Assembly (NCBI RefSeq): GCF_008124605.1
Contig: NZ_VRYN01000002.1
Coordinates: 124,001-188,000 of the forward strand
Reading direction: 5' to 3'
Source of the DNA: Halobacterium salinarum DSM 3754
Lineage (GTDB): Archaea > Halobacteriota > Halobacteria > Halobacteriales > Halobacteriaceae
DNA: 64,000 bases
Below are positions 54,259 to 64,000 of the stretch, piece after piece. The first letter of the stretch is position 1. Each line of letters starts with the position of its first letter. Under the pieces are notes generated by a model, which did not search any database, was not told the DNA's origin, and saw only the letters and a list, made by a program, of their open reading frames with translations. The translations under genes and the position numbers were made by a program.

Positions 54259-54903
54259 ATGACAGCGAACCGCCTCCTCCCGGGCAGCGTATCGGTCGAC
54301 GGCGGCGACGGCTCGGAAGTCGTTCACATCCGGGAGGACGCCGCCGATGATGTCTTCGACGCGCTCGGGTCCCGGACCGCACGCGAGATCCTGAGCGCGC
54401 TCTACGAGGAGCCCGACACGGCGTCGAGCGTCGCCGACCGCGTCGACACCTCCCTGCAGAACGCGAGCTACCACATCGAGAACCTCGTCGAGGCCGACCT
54501 CCTGGAGGTCGCGGACACGTGGTACTCCGCCCAGGGCCGGGAGATGAGCGTGTACGCGCCGGCGAGCGACACCCTGGTGTTGTTCGCCGCCGACAGCGGG
54601 CAGTCGCCGTCGCTGCGCAGCCGGCTGGCCGGACTGCTCGGCGTGCTCGGTGCCCTCGGCGTGGTGAGCGTCGCCGTCCAACGGCTGCTCACCGGGGGTA
54701 CACCGCGCCCCGGTGCCAGGATGCGCGTGGCATCCGAGCGAGTCACACAAGCCGCCGAAAACACCACCGAGCCCGGCGTCATCGATCGGATCGGACACGC
54801 AGTCACGGCGACGCTGCAGACACTCCCGCCCGGCGTCGTGTTCTTCGCCGGTGGCGTGTTCGTCCTCGCGATGGTGGGCGCGTACGCGTGGTATCAGTCC
54901 TAA
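54259..54903 (+). CDS. Winged-helix (ArsR-like) regulator with two C-terminal TM helices
   Basis: 214 aa. Residues about 32-100 are a winged helix (DALGSRTAREILSALYEEPDTASSVADRV, recognition helix around SLQNASYHIENLVEADLL). Residues about 114-134 and 187-210 are TM helices, so the DNA-binding domain would be tethered to the inner face. It opens the cytochrome b/Rieske cluster, transcribed towards it, and may sense membrane or redox state to control these genes (inference). Its stop overlaps that of the convergent gene. Confidence 0.85.
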   Translation: MTANRLLPGSVSVDGGDGSEVVHIREDAADDVFDALGSRTAREILSALYEEPDTASSVADRVDTSLQNASYHIENLVEADLLEVADTWYSAQGREMSVYAPASDTLVLFAADSGQSPSLRSRLAGLLGVLGALGVVSVAVQRLLTGGTPRPGARMRVASERVTQAAENTTEPGVIDRIGHAVTATLQTLPPGVVFFAGGVFVLAMVGAYAWYQS

Positions 54904-55388
54904 AACGGGAACTCGGGGTACCGGATGACGTACCGGGCGAGGCCCAGCACCCAGGCGACCAGCCAGCAGAGCACGTAGCCCGCGACGCCGGCGCGCAGCC
55001 GGAGCCGCCAGGCGCCCATGTTCTCGTGGATGTCGTCGATCTCCAGGTTAGGCTCGGGGTCGTTGTAGAGGTTGTACTGGCGTTTCGCGCGCAGGATCGG
55101 CACGATCCCGGTGAGCGCGAACACCAGAAACGCGTACGCCTGCACGCCGAAGAAGGCGTGCAGCGCCGCGAACCCACCGAGCTGGCCGAGCAACCGGGGT
55201 GCCATCCACGTGACAACGGGCACGGTGTTCAGCGTCAGCCCGACAACGATATACGAGAGGTGGTGTCGCAGCACACCCCACGTGACGGGGTCGGCGTCGA
55301 TGATGATCCACGCGCCGTAGATGTAGAACGGAAAGCTGAGCGTGACCAGCGCCGCGGCGAGGGTGGCGACCGCCACGTCTTCGACCAT
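54900..55388 (-). CDS. Four- to five-TM membrane protein of the bc cluster (DUF7321-like)
   Basis: 162 aa from ATG 55388 (MVEDVAVATLAAALV). TM helices at about 5-27, 42-64, 74-98 and 133-155; two adjacent His in GVLRHHLSYIV and one in AALHAFFGV are potential haem ligands but unproven. Family number from memory. It is the only cluster gene on the minus strand between the regulator and the 303-aa gene. Confidence 0.72.
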   Translation of the reverse strand: MVEDVAVATLAAALVTLSFPFYIYGAWIIIDADPVTWGVLRHHLSYIVVGLTLNTVPVVTWMAPRLLGQLGGFAALHAFFGVQAYAFLVFALTGIVPILRAKRQYNLYNDPEPNLEIDDIHENMGAWRLRLRAGVAGYVLCWLVAWVLGLARYVIRYPEFPF

Positions 55389-55483
55389 ACGTCGGTCTTT
55401 GGCCGGCGGGACAAAACGCGTTCGGGTCGCGGCCACCCCGTCGGTCGGAAGCGTTTACTCCGTCGCCCCGCAACGCGCAGACG

Positions 55484-56395
55484 ATGACGGACTCCAGCGC
55501 CGGCGGAGACGAAACGGAGCCGGCGGATCGCACGACACAGGACACCGACGCCGACAAGTCCGTCGAGTCGATGACCGCAAGCGACATCGCCGCGGAGGTC
55601 GACGACGAGTACGACTTCGAGGAGTTCGGCCCCCGACAGATGGCCGAGATGGACGCCGACGAGTGGGAGGCGGCGTTCGACCCGGACGCGTGGATCACCG
55701 GCGGGGCGTTGCTCGACCGCGTGGCCGACGACCTCCGCAGCCGGGTGGCCACGCGGGACGTGTTCGCGGTCGTCGAGCGCGACACGATCGACGGCGAGCC
55801 CGTGGTGTTGGCGTACTCGGACGAGGGGTACGCCGTCGTCTACGAGGACGGCACCGTGGAGGGGTCGGGCACCGTGCTGCGCGACGTCAAGCCGACGGTT
55901 GCGTTGTGTTCGATGGACAGCTACGATGCGCCCGACCCGCCGGCGGACGCGGGGCTGCCCGACCCCCAGGAGATCCCGGAGTCGGCAAGCGGGTTCGGCA
56001 CCACGCTGCTCCAGTACATCGGCATCGCACAGCTGGTGGCTGGCGTGCTGTTGTTCCTCGCACCGTTCGTGTACGACCCGCTCGTGCGGCAGTGCCCACC
56101 GGTCTCGGTGCCGGGGTCGACGGCGCGTGCGTGCGAGATCGCGGGCGCGTCGTTCACGCTGCATCCGCTGGGTGATTCCGGGATCATCGCAGCCATCGCG
56201 GGTGTGGGGTTCGTCCTGTTCGGCGTGTTCATGCTGGTGTTGGTGGCGAACGCACGGCTCTCGGATCGGTTCCGCGCCGACGAGTTCCGGGCGCGGCTGC
56301 GGTCGGTGGGTGTCGGCACCGACGACCGCCCGGCGTTCGTCCCACAGACCGACGCCGATACCGGGACGGCCGAACCGGACGAAGACACCCCGTAA
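55484..56395 (+). CDS. Two-TM protein with acidic cytosolic domain (DUF7319-like)
   Basis: 303 aa. A very acidic N-terminal half with EEFGPRQMAEMDADEWEAAFD and a beta-rich domain (VFAVVERDTIDGEPVVLAYSDEGYAVVYEDG), then two TM helices (about 172-192 and 230-250) around an external Cys/Pro loop with two Cys (RQCPP, ARACE) that could pair. Found beside halocyanin and Rieske genes; perhaps a biogenesis factor. Family number unverified. Confidence 0.75.
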   Translation: MTDSSAGGDETEPADRTTQDTDADKSVESMTASDIAAEVDDEYDFEEFGPRQMAEMDADEWEAAFDPDAWITGGALLDRVADDLRSRVATRDVFAVVERDTIDGEPVVLAYSDEGYAVVYEDGTVEGSGTVLRDVKPTVALCSMDSYDAPDPPADAGLPDPQEIPESASGFGTTLLQYIGIAQLVAGVLLFLAPFVYDPLVRQCPPVSVPGSTARACEIAGASFTLHPLGDSGIIAAIAGVGFVLFGVFMLVLVANARLSDRFRADEFRARLRSVGVGTDDRPAFVPQTDADTGTAEPDEDTP

Positions 56396-56437
56396 GCCGG
56401 CGATACTGGCGGCGTAGTGGCACCGAGCCATCGGTGG

Positions 56438-56446
56438 GTTTATCCG
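56438..56446 (+). promoter_or_regulatory. TATA box of the halocyanin-Rieske-cytochrome b operon
   Basis: GTTTATCCG about 29 bp before ATG 56471. The genes from 56471 to 59963 follow with almost no gaps, so this is probably the operon promoter. Confidence 0.55.
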
Positions 56447-56470
56447 GTTCGCATCCTGATTTCAGCGTGT

Positions 56471-57160
56471 ATGAAGAGGCGGGACTTTCTCAAAATTGCA
56501 ACCGGCTCGGCTGGCGGCGCGGCGGCCGTCGGAGCAGTCGGTGCGCGGTCGTCCTCGTCTTCGTCAGCCGTACACCAACAGGCACCCGGAAACGCCACGG
56601 GCAACGGCACGGCGATGGACAACAGCACAGCAGGCAACGAGACGGCCGCCGGCGGCGACAGCGAGTCCGGTGACGGCGGCGGTGGTGCAACCACGAAGAC
56701 GGTGAAGGTTGGGCCGAACAACCAGAACGTGTTCGATCCGGCGGAAGTGTACGTCTCACCGGGTGACACCGTGAAGTGGGTGTGGGAAGGATCGACTGGG
56801 CACAACGTCCACGCGACCAGCGTTCCGGACGAGGCTGGCTGGGACGCCCAGACGGAGATCGTCTCCGCCCCTCACGAGTACTCACATACGTTCGAGGGGC
56901 CGACCGGCGAGTACAGCTACGTCTGTGACCCCCACAAGAGTCTGGGGATGAAAGGCAAAGTGATCGTCAACGAGAACGGCCAGGCACCGAGCGGCGGCGG
57001 CGGGCCGGTGGAGCGGTCGCCCCACGAGATGGGCGTCCCGATTCAGGCCCACTACGTGGGCATCGCCACCATCCTCATGATGATCCTGAGCATGGTGTAC
57101 ACGTTCTTCGTGTTGAAGTACGGCGAGTCACGGAACGCCAGCGCCCCGAACAAACCATAA
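56471..57160 (+). CDS. Membrane-anchored halocyanin (blue copper protein)
   Basis: 229 aa from ATG 56471. Tat-type signal (KRRDFLKIATG, residues 2-12), an Asn/Thr/Gly-rich linker with several N-x-T/S sites (about 40-75), then a plastocyanin fold with type I copper ligands H111, C152, H155 and M160 (VCDPHKSLGM). Unlike most halocyanins it ends with a TM helix (about 195-216). As first gene of the Rieske/cytochrome b operon it probably does the job of cytochrome c1/f, passing electrons from Rieske to a mobile halocyanin or the oxidase (inference). Confidence 0.9.
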   Translation: MKRRDFLKIATGSAGGAAAVGAVGARSSSSSSAVHQQAPGNATGNGTAMDNSTAGNETAAGGDSESGDGGGGATTKTVKVGPNNQNVFDPAEVYVSPGDTVKWVWEGSTGHNVHATSVPDEAGWDAQTEIVSAPHEYSHTFEGPTGEYSYVCDPHKSLGMKGKVIVNENGQAPSGGGGPVERSPHEMGVPIQAHYVGIATILMMILSMVYTFFVLKYGESRNASAPNKP

Positions 57161-57546
57161 TGTCTTCGAAAGGCTCCAACTACGGCGACATCCACCGGTA
57201 CGAGCCGGCCAGTGAGAGCACGGCCGCGATGATCACGATCGTGCTCCTGACAGTCATCGAGGTGCTGCTCGTCGGGCTGTTCACCTGGGGGCTCGTGACC
57301 GGACTGGGCACCGATCCAGTCGGAAACATGTATCTCGGGTTCCTGCTGGCGGCGGTCTTCATCGACCTGTCGTTCATCCTGATGCTGTACCGCAAGGAGT
57401 TCCTGCCGGACGTGATGATCGTCAAGAAGCGCCGCCGCAAGTGGGAGGATCTCTACATTCGCGAAGACCAGGTCGACGGCACCTCGATGTTCGAGAACAC
57501 CGTCGAACAGTTCAAAACGGCGCTGTATCCGTACAAGCGTAAATAA
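57160..57546 (+). CDS. Two-TM subunit of the bc operon (DUF7318-like)
   Basis: 128 aa, translationally coupled to the halocyanin (TAATG). TM helices at about 22-46 and 54-74, then a basic/acidic soluble C-terminus (KKRRRKWEDLYIRE). Always beside halocyanin and Rieske genes as far as I recall, so likely a structural subunit of the complex. Family number unverified. Confidence 0.78.
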   Translation: MSSKGSNYGDIHRYEPASESTAAMITIVLLTVIEVLLVGLFTWGLVTGLGTDPVGNMYLGFLLAAVFIDLSFILMLYRKEFLPDVMIVKKRRRKWEDLYIREDQVDGTSMFENTVEQFKTALYPYKRK

Positions 57547-57548
57547 CA

Positions 57549-58379
57549 ATGTCAGACAAATATCCAGAGAGTTCGGGTCGACGCCGGTTCGTGAAAGGCG
57601 TCGTGGGAAGCGCAGCGCTGGCCGGCGCTGGGACGGCCGGCACGGCAGTTCTCGAATCGGTCACCAATCCAACGGGGTCGGGTGGTGGGCAGACGAACTA
57701 CTTCGCCGTCGAGAACACCGCCGGTCCGGCACCCCGGGGGATGCCGATGGTCCCCATCGAGATCGACGACAACGGCGACATCAAGGGCGTGTTCCCGGAT
57801 GTCAAGGAGGTCGAGACGGAGACCGGTGGCACGAAAAAGCAAGCCCGGATGGAGCTGGGCGGCATCGAGTACACGCCCAACTGGTACCAGTACTGTGGCG
57901 TGCAGGGCTACGGCGGGTTGCGCCCGGACTACGACGGTGACAACTACTTCCGGTTCTCGGGCGCCGGGTACAGCTGGCAGCCCTCCGGTGGGAAAGTCAA
58001 CATCGACGAGTTCGACGACTACGACACCTGGGAGAACGACTACGGTGACGCCGGCATCGGGAAGCCGGCGAAAGCGACGTGGCGGTCCCAGAACACCGAT
58101 AACACGATCCCGATCCTGATCATCCGCAGTCCCGTCCTCGAAGACCGCGTCGAGTCCGCTGAGGGGGAGGTCGCCGAGTGGCTGGAGGCCGCGACCGATC
58201 AGGGCGTCATGGCGATCGTCAACAAGTGTACGCACTTCTGCTGTGCGCCACAGGGGTTCCGCACGTCGAACTACGAGGGCGCTGAGGACAAGATCTACTG
58301 TCAGTGCCACCAGTCGATCTACGATCCGTTCAGCATCGTGAAAAAGAGCTTCGTCGCGTTCGCGCGGCCTGAAAACTAA
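57549..58379 (+). CDS. petA: Rieske iron-sulfur protein
   Basis: 276 aa. Tat-type N-terminus (GRRRFVKGVVGSAALAG) serving as signal anchor. Rieske centre: C227-T-H229-F-C-C232 and C251-Q-C253-H254-Q-S, giving two Cys and two His ligands plus the C232-C253 disulfide. An inserted Tyr/Asp-rich region (about 105-170) is larger than in bacterial Rieske proteins. Takes electrons from quinol at the Qo site and hands them to the copper protein. Confidence 0.94.
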   Translation: MSDKYPESSGRRRFVKGVVGSAALAGAGTAGTAVLESVTNPTGSGGGQTNYFAVENTAGPAPRGMPMVPIEIDDNGDIKGVFPDVKEVETETGGTKKQARMELGGIEYTPNWYQYCGVQGYGGLRPDYDGDNYFRFSGAGYSWQPSGGKVNIDEFDDYDTWENDYGDAGIGKPAKATWRSQNTDNTIPILIIRSPVLEDRVESAEGEVAEWLEAATDQGVMAIVNKCTHFCCAPQGFRTSNYEGAEDKIYCQCHQSIYDPFSIVKKSFVAFARPEN

Positions 58380-58381
58380 CA

Positions 58382-59194
58382 ATGAGCATTGAACGCAAAG
58401 ACGACCACGACCACAAGGCCTGGATCAAGGAGAAGGATCTGACGGCCATCGAGAGCACGTTCCTCACGGTGCTGGTGTGGCTCGACCGCCGCCTCCGCAT
58501 TGTCGATTACTTGGAACTCCTGGAGACGCTGTACTACCGCGTCAACCTCCAGATGCCGAAAAGCCACACCGAACAGTACAACCTCGACAACAAGTTCTGG
58601 TACTGGTATCCGCTGTACTCGCTTGGGTTCTTCTCGACGCTGTCGTACGTCGTCGCGGCGATCTCCGGGGCCCTGCTTGGGTTCTACTATTCGCCGTCGG
58701 CGGCCGCGGCGACCTGTGGCGTCGACGGGAGCACGGTGGCGTACTGTGCGGTCGCGGGGATCATGACCGATCTGAACTTCGGGTTCTTCCTGCGGTCGCT
58801 GCACCGGTGGGCCGCACAGGTCATGACCGCCGCGGTCTTCCTGCACATGCTGCGCGTGTACTTCACGGGCTCGTACAAGGAACCCCGCGAAGTCAACTGG
58901 CTCATCGGCATCGTCCTGCTCAGCCTGACGATGGTGTTCGGGTACACGGGCTACCTCCTGCCGTGGGACCAGCTCGCGTACTGGGCGGGACAGATCGGTG
59001 TCGAGATGAGCCTCTCGATCCCACTGGTCGGCGACTGGGTCGCCCAGTTGATGTTCGGTGGGTTCTCGCTCGGACAGGCAACGCTCCAGCGGATGTACCT
59101 CCTGCACGTGTTCCTGTTGCCGTTCGTGGTGACAACCGTGATCGCGATCCACCTCGGGCTGGTGTGGATGCAGGGCATCGCAGAACCCCACTAA
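58382..59194 (+). CDS. petB: Cytochrome b, N-terminal (b6-like) subunit
   Basis: 270 aa, four core TM helices. Haem ligands H141/H155 (13 residues between) and H242/H257 (14 between). The 14 spacing is the cytochrome b6 type, whereas mitochondrial-type cytochrome b has 13. The first 70 residues are an extra polar extension. Two bases after the Rieske stop. Confidence 0.94.
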   Translation: MSIERKDDHDHKAWIKEKDLTAIESTFLTVLVWLDRRLRIVDYLELLETLYYRVNLQMPKSHTEQYNLDNKFWYWYPLYSLGFFSTLSYVVAAISGALLGFYYSPSAAAATCGVDGSTVAYCAVAGIMTDLNFGFFLRSLHRWAAQVMTAAVFLHMLRVYFTGSYKEPREVNWLIGIVLLSLTMVFGYTGYLLPWDQLAYWAGQIGVEMSLSIPLVGDWVAQLMFGGFSLGQATLQRMYLLHVFLLPFVVTTVIAIHLGLVWMQGIAEPH

Positions 59195-59198
59195 CACA

Positions 59199-59963
59199 AT
59201 GAGTGACGACCAACCAACGGACGAGGACGCTCGCACCGACGGCACGGGGATCGTCTCACCCGACGACGAGACGCCCACGTGGCGCGAACGGAAAGAACGA
59301 ACGACGGGGCTGTCGCGGCTGACCTACGAGTACTTCGAGCGGTCGCGCCGCGAGGACCAAGACCTCCGCCAGGAGTCGGACTACGTCGAGCGGGACGTGC
59401 TGGCGTTCCCGACGTGGCCCCACGAGCTCGTGCGGAACCTCGCGATCACGAGCTTCTTCGTGGGCATGATCCTGTTCCTCGGCGCGACGCTGCCGCCGCA
59501 CCTCGGACAGCCGGCCAACCCCAGCACGACGCCGGCCGTGATCCTGCCCGACTGGTATCTGTACTGGTCGTTCGGGCTGTTGAAGCTCAGCGCGTTGAAC
59601 CCCGAGCTCGCCATCCTCGGCGGCCAGAAGCTGCTGGCCGACCGGACGTTCGGCGTGCTCGCGAACGTCGTTGTGGTCGGGTTCATTGCCATCGTGCCGT
59701 TCCTCAACAAGGGGAGCGCACGACGCCCCGTCGAGCAGCCGTTCTGGGCGTCCGTCGGCGTGATGGGTGTCGTGTTCGCGTTCACCATCAGCGCGTACTC
59801 GGCGAAAACCCACCTCCCGTTGAACCCGCATCTGAGCTTCGATCTGGCGTTCCTCATCCCGCCGATGGCGGGTGCGGTCGCGTACGCCATCCTGAAGACG
59901 ATGCGCGAGGGGTACATGTACGACCTGAACAAGCGGTATTACAAGCTGCGGCCGCCGAAGTAG
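59199..59963 (+). CDS. petD: Cytochrome b C-terminal part (subunit IV-like)
   Basis: 254 aa. Three to four TM helices after an 80-residue acidic extension. The Qo-site motif PEWY is PDWY here (117-120, VILPDWYLYWSFG). Splitting of cytochrome b into b6 and subunit IV parallels b6f complexes. Four bases after the petB stop. Confidence 0.92.
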   Translation: MSDDQPTDEDARTDGTGIVSPDDETPTWRERKERTTGLSRLTYEYFERSRREDQDLRQESDYVERDVLAFPTWPHELVRNLAITSFFVGMILFLGATLPPHLGQPANPSTTPAVILPDWYLYWSFGLLKLSALNPELAILGGQKLLADRTFGVLANVVVVGFIAIVPFLNKGSARRPVEQPFWASVGVMGVVFAFTISAYSAKTHLPLNPHLSFDLAFLIPPMAGAVAYAILKTMREGYMYDLNKRYYKLRPPK

Positions 59964-60056
59964 CGGCCCGCTTGCGGCGTCGTTTTTTCGCGTGTCGGCT
60001 CCCGGTGAGCTGTGGTTCCGTCGCAGTAAAGTAGCCAGCACCCCCACAGTACCGTG

Positions 60057-60344
60057 ATGGGTGACGATTCACGCAGTATCGTTGTTCCCGAGCGCCTCTA
60101 CAAGACCGTGACCGTGTTTTCGACGTTGTTCGCGATCGTGACGGTCGTCGGGGGGTTCGTGGCGCTCGACGCGGCGACGAAGAGCGCGTCGGCCAAAGCC
60201 AGTGAGGTGAGCGTCCCGTTCGCGGTGTTGGGTATCGGGCTGATCGCGGCCGGCGGCCTGGTGTACGCGTTCGCGTCCCGGTTCCGGGCCCGTGGAATGG
60301 CAACGGATAAGAACAGCGACGACCAACAACCAAACAATGGCTGA
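60057..60344 (+). CDS. Two-TM small protein of the bc cluster (DUF7315-like)
   Basis: 95 aa from ATG 60057 (a GTG one codon earlier is possible). TM helices about 20-42 and 55-77, polar basic tail. Ends in an eight-base overlap with the next gene. Likely complex subunit or assembly protein; family number unverified. Confidence 0.75.
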   Translation: MGDDSRSIVVPERLYKTVTVFSTLFAIVTVVGGFVALDAATKSASAKASEVSVPFAVLGIGLIAAGGLVYAFASRFRARGMATDKNSDDQQPNNG

Positions 60345-60597
60345 CGAATTCATCAAGGGGCTGGGCATGTTGACCGGCGGTGGCCTCGTGTGGATGATCA
60401 TGGCGGGGTGGTACCGGACGCCGGAGTTCGGGCACGGCCAGCTCATCAGTGAGGTGCCAAGCAACCTAACCATGTACGACCAGATGGCGGTCGTGCTGTT
60501 GGAGGGGGCGTTCTGGGTGGCGATCATCGGGGCGTTGTTCTTCTGGATCGGCCTGCCGTTGGGCCGTGAAGCGTACGCGACGTACGCCTCGAATTAA
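60337..60597 (+). CDS. Two-TM small protein of the bc cluster (DUF7314-like)
   Basis: 86 aa from ATG 60337 inside the previous gene's end. TM helices about 8-27 and 53-75; the first contains MLTGGGLVWMIMAGWY. The upstream in-frame sequence is shadow of the previous gene. Function inferred only from position. Confidence 0.75.
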   Translation: MADEFIKGLGMLTGGGLVWMIMAGWYRTPEFGHGQLISEVPSNLTMYDQMAVVLLEGAFWVAIIGALFFWIGLPLGREAYATYASN

Positions 60598-60691
60598 GCG
60601 GGCGGGCGGCGTGCTGTTAGATCACTCGGAACGCGCCACAGCGGGCATCGAAACGGAGAACGTCGGCAGGCCGGAGCCGCGAGCGTGACGA

Positions 60692-61132
60692 TCAGACGAC
60701 CTGCGTCCACAGCGGCTTGACGATGAAAAACAGGCTGAGGTAGGCGACGTACAGCAGCATGAAGGTCGCAGCGACGAGCGCGCCCTTGGGGCGTTCGAGG
60801 CTGCGGCCGTCGCGTGCTTCGACTTTCCGGGCTTCGAACTCGAAGAAGTCGGCGAAGAACACGCCGAGCACGAGCACCGACAGCACCATTCCAGCGTGGT
60901 GGTGGAGTGTGAGGTAGTACAGCGTCGTGATGACGAGGCCCCACGTGGTGAACGAGTGGAACCAGTGTCGGCTGAGCGCTTCGGGACCGTCGGCGGCCTG
61001 CGTGACGTGTTGTGCGTGCGCGATGCGTCGGCTGACGAAGTTCAGGACCGCGAGCGCCAGGATCGCATATTCGAGGTATGGCGCGACCAACGTGTCAAGG
61101 GGCCCGAAGATCGCGACCGAGGGGTCTACCAT
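60692..61132 (-). CDS. Four-TM protein of the bc cluster (DUF7313-like)
   Basis: 146 aa. TM helices at about 18-36, 60-80, 82-96 and 118-140, with several His in the second and nearby loops (HWFHSF, LTLHHHAGMV) that could bind haem or metal. AGTATTATG 26 bp upstream supports ATG 61132. Convergent with the small-subunit genes. Family number unverified. Confidence 0.75.
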   Translation of the reverse strand: MVDPSVAIFGPLDTLVAPYLEYAILALAVLNFVSRRIAHAQHVTQAADGPEALSRHWFHSFTTWGLVITTLYYLTLHHHAGMVLSVLVLGVFFADFFEFEARKVEARDGRSLERPKGALVAATFMLLYVAYLSLFFIVKPLWTQVV

Positions 61133-63392: not shown

Positions 63393-63650
63393 CTACAGCT
63401 CGTCTTCGTCTTTGAGGCCGGCGATCACGTCGTCGACGAGGGTGTCGACGGAGTCGTAGGGGAAGTCCGCGCGGCTCGAGAGCTTGGTGGCCAGCTCCAT
63501 CGCCGTCCAGGATTCGCCGCCGGCCTCGAAGGACGTCGAGGGGCCGCTTGGGAGCGCCGGCACGAGCCCCATCTGGTTTTTGACGGGATAGTCGGCGGTT
63601 GCGAACGCGTCGGTGAGTTCCTCGCGGAGTTCGGACTCGACAGTGGACAT
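63393..63650 (-). CDS. MTH865-family small protein
   Basis: 85 aa, all-helical, EF-hand-like family of unknown function from archaea: DAFATADYPVKNQMGLVPALPSGP and ADFPYDSVDTLVDDVIAGL match the two halves of the fold. AATGATAAGC 27 bp upstream of ATG 63650 indicates a leaderless mRNA. Confidence 0.82.
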   Translation of the reverse strand: MSTVESELREELTDAFATADYPVKNQMGLVPALPSGPSTSFEAGGESWTAMELATKLSSRADFPYDSVDTLVDDVIAGLKDEDEL

Positions 63651-63671
63651 GGGAGGGTCGTCGGTACCACC

Positions 63672-63681
63672 AATGATAAGC
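63672..63681 (-). promoter_or_regulatory. TATA box of the MTH865-like gene
   Basis: AATGATAAGC on the plus strand (GCTTATCATT in the gene's direction), centred 27 bp before ATG 63650. Confidence 0.55.
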
Positions 63682-63792
63682 GTTCTGGAACGACGGACGT
63701 GCGGACGCGCGTTGTCGGTGGCGGCCTCACGGGGGCGTGTGGCGAACGGACAAACCAAAGTCTTCAGTAGCCGTGATTCCTTAGCCGCACGT

Positions 63793-64000
63793 ATGAACTC
63801 CGAGACCGATGTGGGGGTGTCCCGGCGGAGCGTCCTTCGCGGCGGCGTGGCTGCCGCTGCGGGTGCAGCGGCCACGGGCACGGCGGCGGCAGCCGAAGGC
63901 GAGGGCGGTGACGGCGGCGGGGAGAAAGTCGTGAAAGTCGGCCCCAACGGGAGTAACGTCTTCAAGCCCGCGGAGATGTACGTCAAACCCGGTACGAAAG
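63793..64000 (+). CDS. Second halocyanin, N-terminal part
   Basis: 69 codons before the window ends. Tat-type signal (SRRSVLRGGVAAAAGAAATG), a Gly/Glu linker, then KVGPNGSNVFKPAEMYVKPG, closely similar to residues 79-98 of the halocyanin at 56471. Copper ligands lie outside the window. With the anchored halocyanin it could form a two-step copper relay. Confidence 0.88.
   Translation, partial: MNSETDVGVSRRSVLRGGVAAAAGAAATGTAAAAEGEGGDGGGEKVVKVGPNGSNVFKPAEMYVKPGTK

Follow-up and report, generated by a model that had tools for sequence, protein, structure and literature searches.

A haloarchaeal complex III gene cluster with a probable membrane-tethered halocyanin acceptor and a Rieske protein permuted by sequence

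Introduction

The classic scheme for complex III pairs a swinging Rieske head with a fixed cytochrome c1 or f, and accepted models of electron splitting without short circuit, in complex III as in cytochrome b6f, give a central place to the large swing of that head about a basal hinge. Which protein, then, accepts the electron from the Rieske cluster where no such cytochrome is found? This question is raised by a complex III gene cluster of Halobacterium salinarum DSM 3754, located at positions 54900-61132 of the 64,000-nucleotide stretch of DNA that we analyzed (the window, to which coordinates refer unless stated otherwise). The cluster probably encodes a haloarchaeal complex III with a dedicated membrane-tethered halocyanin as acceptor, a circularly permuted Rieske protein, and further membrane helices supplied separately by the small protein DUF7318. 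If this is true, a Rieske protein tethered at the opposite end, together with a tethered copper acceptor, would provide a natural test of which features of the mechanism are essential.

The b6f-like character of haloarchaeal petABD, with halocyanin as the presumed carrier, is already published (Pfeiffer and Dyall-Smith 2021, PMC8305020). The role of halocyanin as a one-electron carrier is also stated elsewhere (PMC3403918), and the missing cytochrome c1 is known as the haloarchaea paradox (PMC4429474), to which a tethered halocyanin would offer a resolution. The complex described here is identical to that petABD and shares its b6f-like cytochrome b and halocyanin carrier. The accounts of haloarchaeal petABD that we covered, which did not include Baymann 2012, describe no linked membrane-tailed halocyanin, conserved DUF set, DUF7318-QcrA relation, or Rieske permutation.

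Other archaea are also known to pair complex III with a copper protein. In the SoxM supercomplex of Sulfolobus, a blue copper protein, sulfocyanin (SoxE), takes electrons from a bc1-like module (PMC3062577), but SoxM is part of an oxidase supercomplex and differs in its protein families and anchor. In Angelarchaeales, a plastocyanin-like gene lies upstream of the Rieske gene in 23 of 30 complex III loci, and no cytochrome c is present (PMC9038741). Complex III of Angelarchaeales and Nitrososphaerales, lineages other than haloarchaea, resembles the present cluster in its copper-protein linkage, a comparison that leaves the DUF set and the Rieske topology aside.

Organization and distribution of the gene cluster

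On re-reading, we confirmed all ten open reading frames (ORFs) that an earlier, sequence-only reading had placed at 54900-61132. From left to right they encode DUF7321 (minus strand), DUF7319, halocyanin, DUF7318, the Rieske protein, the N- and C-terminal halves of cytochrome b, DUF7315, DUF7314, and DUF7313 (minus strand). The central genes are tightly packed: the halocyanin stop and DUF7318 start codons overlap by one base (TAATG), and gaps of 2, 2, and 4 bases follow between DUF7318, the Rieske gene, and the two cytochrome b halves. This gene order is identical in 40/40 haloarchaeal neighborhoods from about 30 genera, and we therefore reject chance linkage; the halocyanin adjoins DUF7318 in every one. 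The same order is found in most of 80 named loci. Named relatives with the cluster include Halobacterium, Haloferax, Haloquadratum, Haloarcula, Natronomonas, Actinarchaeum halophilum, and Marine Group IV (Hikarchaeia) HikBin5.

We examined co-occurrence in 117 haloarchaeal genomes of at least 90% completeness. Profile searches found the split cytochrome b of b6 type in 83 of these, and DUF7318 is present in the same 83, as confirmed by checking the identity of the two sets. A full-length Rieske profile matches 83 genomes at E < 1e-88, with nothing comparable in the remaining 34, and a profile built from only the last 52 residues of the halocyanin, its membrane tail, matches the b6-type genomes, all 83 and no others, at E < 1e-20. 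Cytochrome b, DUF7318, the halocyanin tail, and the permuted Rieske protein thus share one set of 83 genomes out of 117, with no strong match among the other 34.

The halocyanin and its membrane tail

The halocyanin gene (56471..57160, plus strand; Copper-bind E 2e-17) encodes a protein with a Tat signal (motif RRDFL) and the C-terminal membrane helix that the sequence-only reading had described. Its soluble domain is a plastocyanin-type cupredoxin with the His, Cys, His, and Met ligands of a blue copper protein, and these type-1 copper ligands (H111, C152, H155, and M160) are invariant in 41/41 sequences. The membrane tail (57026..57133, plus strand) carries the motif GVPxQxHxVG...TFxxLKYGES and is found on no other halocyanin of this genome. 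Between domain and tail lies a linker with a median length of 19 residues that is rich in glycine and glutamate. The mean pairwise identity is 62% in the tail, compared with 46% in the copper domain and 31% in the linker.

Linkage, co-occurrence (83/83 genomes with the complex versus 0/34 without it), and the conserved tail support the association of this halocyanin with complex III. One alternative is that the protein is not a subunit but a membrane-anchored mobile carrier, like cytochrome cy of Rhodobacter, and that its position in the operon serves co-expression. The flexible, Gly/Glu-rich linker would suit such a carrier, and the general view is that one-electron transport in haloarchaea is the task of halocyanins (PMC8305020). 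However, an anchor requires hydrophobicity only, yet the tail is better conserved than any other part of the protein, and it is missing from genomes that lack the complex; we consider an anchored carrier of this kind, outside the complex, unlikely. As the best-conserved segment is not what would be expected of a bare anchor, we read the tail as a helix packed against the complex and the halocyanin as a putative docked subunit of complex III with a mobile copper domain. The sequence-only reading had proposed that the halocyanin replaces cytochrome c1 or f as a built-in acceptor. Linkage, co-occurrence, the tail, and the absence of c1 and CcmE from the genome favor this proposal, but with its copper domain on a flexible linker of some 19 residues, the halocyanin resembles a tethered carrier more closely than it does a rigid counterpart of c1 or f.

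The tail motif includes an invariant histidine, His194, at the outer end of the membrane helix. A second halocyanin gene lies 3' of the cluster (window 63613-64000 and beyond; genome C2:187940-188194) and encodes a loosely similar C-terminal helix with the sequence FFMKYGG. Several relatives have copies related to it, 4.5-8 kb downstream of cytochrome b.

Search for a c-type cytochrome partner

A bc1 complex would include a cytochrome c1 subunit, which is missing here. The sequence-only reading had noticed no CxxCH in the cluster, in agreement with our codon-pattern scan, and had suggested a genome-wide search for homologues of c1 and f. In that search, cytochrome c1 (PF02167) gave no match in the genome at E 10, and Cytochrome_CBB3 gave nothing above the cut-off, only matches at noise level. 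We read all 97 CxxCH-coding sites of the genome, 47 of which fall within an ORF having a start. By our reading none resembles an exported cytochrome, and the plausible proteins among them are thymidine kinase-, radical SAM-, HNH-, and thioredoxin-like. For cytochrome f, whose profile itself was not run, the cluster contains no CxxCH and the genome neither an exported CxxCH candidate nor CcmE; nor did we see any other c1/f-like protein. CcmE, which belongs to the sole haem c maturation system reported for archaea (PMC4429474), is also lacking in 77 of the 83 genomes that encode the complex.

It could nevertheless be argued that the real acceptor, as has been proposed for the haloarchaea paradox, is an unrecognized haem c protein with non-standard attachment, which would place the halocyanin on a side branch. 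Heme-staining c-type proteins have indeed been purified from Halobacterium, Haloferax, and Natronomonas, their gene being unidentified (PMC4429474, PMC8305020). The Natronomonas protein, however, was attributed to SdhD by Pfeiffer and Dyall-Smith (PMC8305020), none of the small subunits has a conserved Cys pair, and CcmE is missing from most genomes that encode the complex. We therefore consider a haem c subunit that lacks CxxCH very improbable. The DUF proteins, in particular, can be rejected as haem c carriers for want of a conserved Cys pair.

The Rieske protein

The sequence-only reading was also correct in assigning a Rieske protein (PetA; 57549..58379, plus strand), with the motifs CTHFCC and CQCHQS. 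Its cluster ligands, C227, H229, C251, and H254, are present in 21/21 sequences. Pfam and NCBIfam detect only the cluster-binding boxes of this protein (box I/II, residues 227-256), an effect that we attribute to a circular permutation of the Rieske fold. In the canonical order, strands, box I, and box II are followed by the Pro-loop and the last strands, and the Pro-loop sequence GPAPxxLPxxPxxxxxxGxL lies a few residues after box II, as it also does in haloarchaeal nar-type Rieske proteins. The H. salinarum protein departs from this order: the corresponding sequence, GPAPRGMPxxPxEIDDxG, sits about 170 residues N-terminal to box I (GPAPRG segment, residues 59-80), and the chain ends about 20 residues past box II. 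All 21 linked copies share this arrangement. Among the proteins resolved by pattern, the Pro-loop segment precedes box I in all 61 of the complex type and follows box II in 13 of the nar type.

Profile alignments point to a displaced segment rather than a missing one. In its native order, the protein aligns by hhalign to the nar-type Rieske profile over the boxes only, with a score of 59.6 and E 2.4e-8. When the N-terminal segment is rotated behind the C terminus, the score rises to 100.3 (E 7.6e-15) in one continuous alignment that passes through box II and on into the Pro-loop. With the moved segment shuffled, scores reach at most 67.7 (mean 60.3), and moving other segments gives 56-59. Aligned alone, the displaced Pro-loop and terminal strand segment (residues 50-84; 57696..57800, plus strand) matches the canonical site after box II with E 4.8e-9, and in a profile search of the PDB, residues 61-82 align to the C terminus of actinobacterial QcrA (PDB 7q21).

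The AlphaFold model of the protein (pLDDT 83.7, pTM 0.79) found no Rieske match in a Foldseek search of the PDB, only insignificant, unrelated ones. This result would agree with a different explanation, in which the N-terminal GPAP segment is a convergent proline motif and the head simply lacks its terminal strands; the motif is also short, with about 29 aligned columns. Yet the alignment extends over GPAPRGMPxxPxEIDDxG to both nar-type and actinobacterial canonical Rieske proteins at the same relative site, and neither shuffled nor other segments produce a gain in score, which makes convergence quite improbable. Foldseek aligns in sequence order, so the lack of a match may be expected for a permuted fold, and the permutation accordingly rests on sequence profiles. 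These profiles indicate a circularly permuted Rieske head, in which the membrane helix and GSGGG hinge would consequently attach next to the cluster instead of at the base.

At the phylum level, every sampled genome in which we found the permuted protein belongs to the haloarchaeal class; a single genome from outside it gave a match, confined to the box region. The literature that we searched, from which Baymann 2012 was missing, contains no account of a circularly permuted Rieske protein, and the permutation is likely, though not certainly, new. Two further cysteines are invariant, C116 outside the box motifs and C231 in box I (CTHFCC for CTHxGC), and these could form an additional disulfide. 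Nine genomes (G012, G016, G050, G055, G084, G100, G102, G106, and G109) encode a second full-length Rieske protein of the permuted type elsewhere.

DUF7318 and actinobacterial QcrA

DUF7318, a two-helix protein, is encoded immediately upstream of the Rieske gene (57160..57546, plus strand). All 41 members match the NCBIfam model of QcrA (NF050121), the best with E 1.8e-6, over profile positions 22-118 of 319, which correspond to the N-terminal membrane hairpin. Every score is far below the curated cut-off of that model, and we therefore regard the relation as remote homology. A PDB search gave a weak match to QcrA helix 2 (E 1.5). We read DUF7318 as the putative first helix pair of a three-helix Rieske subunit, split off as a protein of its own.

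QcrA is the Rieske protein, with three membrane helices, of the actinobacterial bcc complex. Its N-terminal hairpin is remotely related to DUF7318, and its head resembles the haloarchaeal protein in box and Pro-loop sequence, but hairpin and head are joined in one gene where the haloarchaea have two, the head follows the canonical order, and the partner is the dihaem c subunit QcrC instead of a halocyanin. The haloarchaeal nar-type complex likewise combines Rieske and cytochrome b proteins and has a DUF7318-like protein upstream (best E 1e-5), but its cytochrome b is unsplit, its Rieske order is canonical, and no tail-bearing halocyanin is linked to it. In these nar-type loci (L080-L099), the protein preceding the Rieske gene is a membrane protein of 190-200 residues with the DUF7318-like part at its C terminus; these distant relatives have no match in the PDB, nor to QcrA in NCBIfam.

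Cytochrome b

The N-terminal half of cytochrome b (PetB; 58382..59194, plus strand; Cytochrome_B E 8e-45) carries the four haem ligands, H141 and H155 with 13 residues between them and H242 and H257 with 14. The C-terminal half (PetD; 59199..59963, plus strand; Cytochrom_B_C E 2e-9) carries the quinol-site motif PDWY. The split, the 13/14 spacing, and PDWY in place of PEWY had all been recognized in the sequence-only reading, and we find both ligands and motif invariant in 41/41 sequences. A cytochrome b with four histidines, a Qo motif, and a Rieske 2Fe-2S protein place the complex in the complex III superfamily. The genome yielded only this one cytochrome b, and we therefore rejected the existence of a second such complex.

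The cytochrome b6f complex is similar in the division of cytochrome b into b6 and subunit IV parts and in the 13/14 spacing, and the closest relatives among solved structures are b6 for PetB and b6f subunit IV for PetD. It is different in having cytochrome f, PEWY, a Rieske protein that is not permuted, and a cysteine for haem ci. S80 of PetB aligns to the haem ci-binding Cys35 of b6, a column that contains Ser in 16, Thr in 9, and Ala in 16 of the 41 sequences and never Cys; the halocyanin is likewise foreign to b6f. In the absence of both the haem ci cysteine and cytochrome f, the b6-type label that the sequence-only reading had given to the complex fits only in part.

Proposed electron path

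In the mechanism that we propose, menaquinol would be oxidized at the PDWY site of the split cytochrome b, with one electron passing down the two b haems and the other to the Rieske cluster. From there the electron would move to the copper of the dedicated halocyanin, which its own conserved C-terminal helix would anchor in the complex. The copper domain, on its flexible glycine-rich linker, may collect electrons at the Rieske protein and hand them on, either to other halocyanins or to oxidases linked to halocyanin, and the tethered halocyanin would thus merge the roles of cytochrome c1 or f and of the mobile carrier. The Rieske tether would join beside the cluster, and the first two membrane helices of the Rieske subunit would be made separately as DUF7318. 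A further suggestion, tentative and rather doubtful, is an exchange of the moving part: the permuted Rieske protein, tethered next to its cluster, might be held near the quinol site while the halocyanin copper domain swings to collect the electron.

Set against a dedicated halocyanin acceptor and a permuted Rieske protein are the purified heme-staining proteins and the missing Foldseek match described above, the draft state of the source genome (40 contigs, 99.2% complete), and the fact that the Rieske gene is linked to the cluster in 20/40 loci and unlinked in the other half.

Elsewhere in the genome, ba3-type oxidase genes COX1 and COX2 (L268:999-4539, genome C1) adjoin, in one operon, the gene for a 432-residue subunit that has a C-terminal helix and carries two halocyanin domains; this arrangement is consistent with an all-copper connection between the complexes. 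A multicopper oxidase gene, possibly nitrite reductase NirK-like (L269:2978-4741, genome C3), is directly followed by one for a 207-residue halocyanin with a C-terminal helix of its own.

Other small membrane proteins

The sequence-only reading had counted five or six small membrane proteins and proposed them as novel subunits. We find six, each already a named DUF family in Pfam, and DUF7318, with its relative in the QcrA hairpin, is not wholly new. The literature that we covered contains no mention of the DUF names searched. Downstream of cytochrome b lie the genes for two-helix membrane proteins DUF7315 (60054..60344, plus strand; Pfam E 4e-30) and DUF7314 (60337..60597, plus strand; E 6e-35), which overlap and are each linked in 39/40 loci, followed by the membrane protein DUF7313 (60692..61132, minus strand; E 8e-60; 30/40 loci), which is found in either orientation in relatives. 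Several conserved families of unknown proteins are tied to one complex in a group that includes the genetically tractable Haloferax.

DUF7319 (55484..56395, plus strand; Pfam E 9e-92; 39/40 loci) consists of a soluble N-terminal domain and two membrane helices. A Foldseek search with its AlphaFold model (pLDDT 86) found no known fold in the PDB. M53, M56, and M144 are invariant, and C142 is present in 37/40 sequences; the resulting MxxM (M53, M56) and CxM (C142, M144) motifs might bind Cu(I). DUF7319 is a possible assembly or copper-handling factor. At the left edge of the cluster, DUF7321 (54900..55436, minus strand; Pfam E 4e-75; 38/40 loci) is a four-helix membrane protein encoded as a divergent neighbor of the operon, and its histidines H59 and H93 are invariant in 39/39 sequences.

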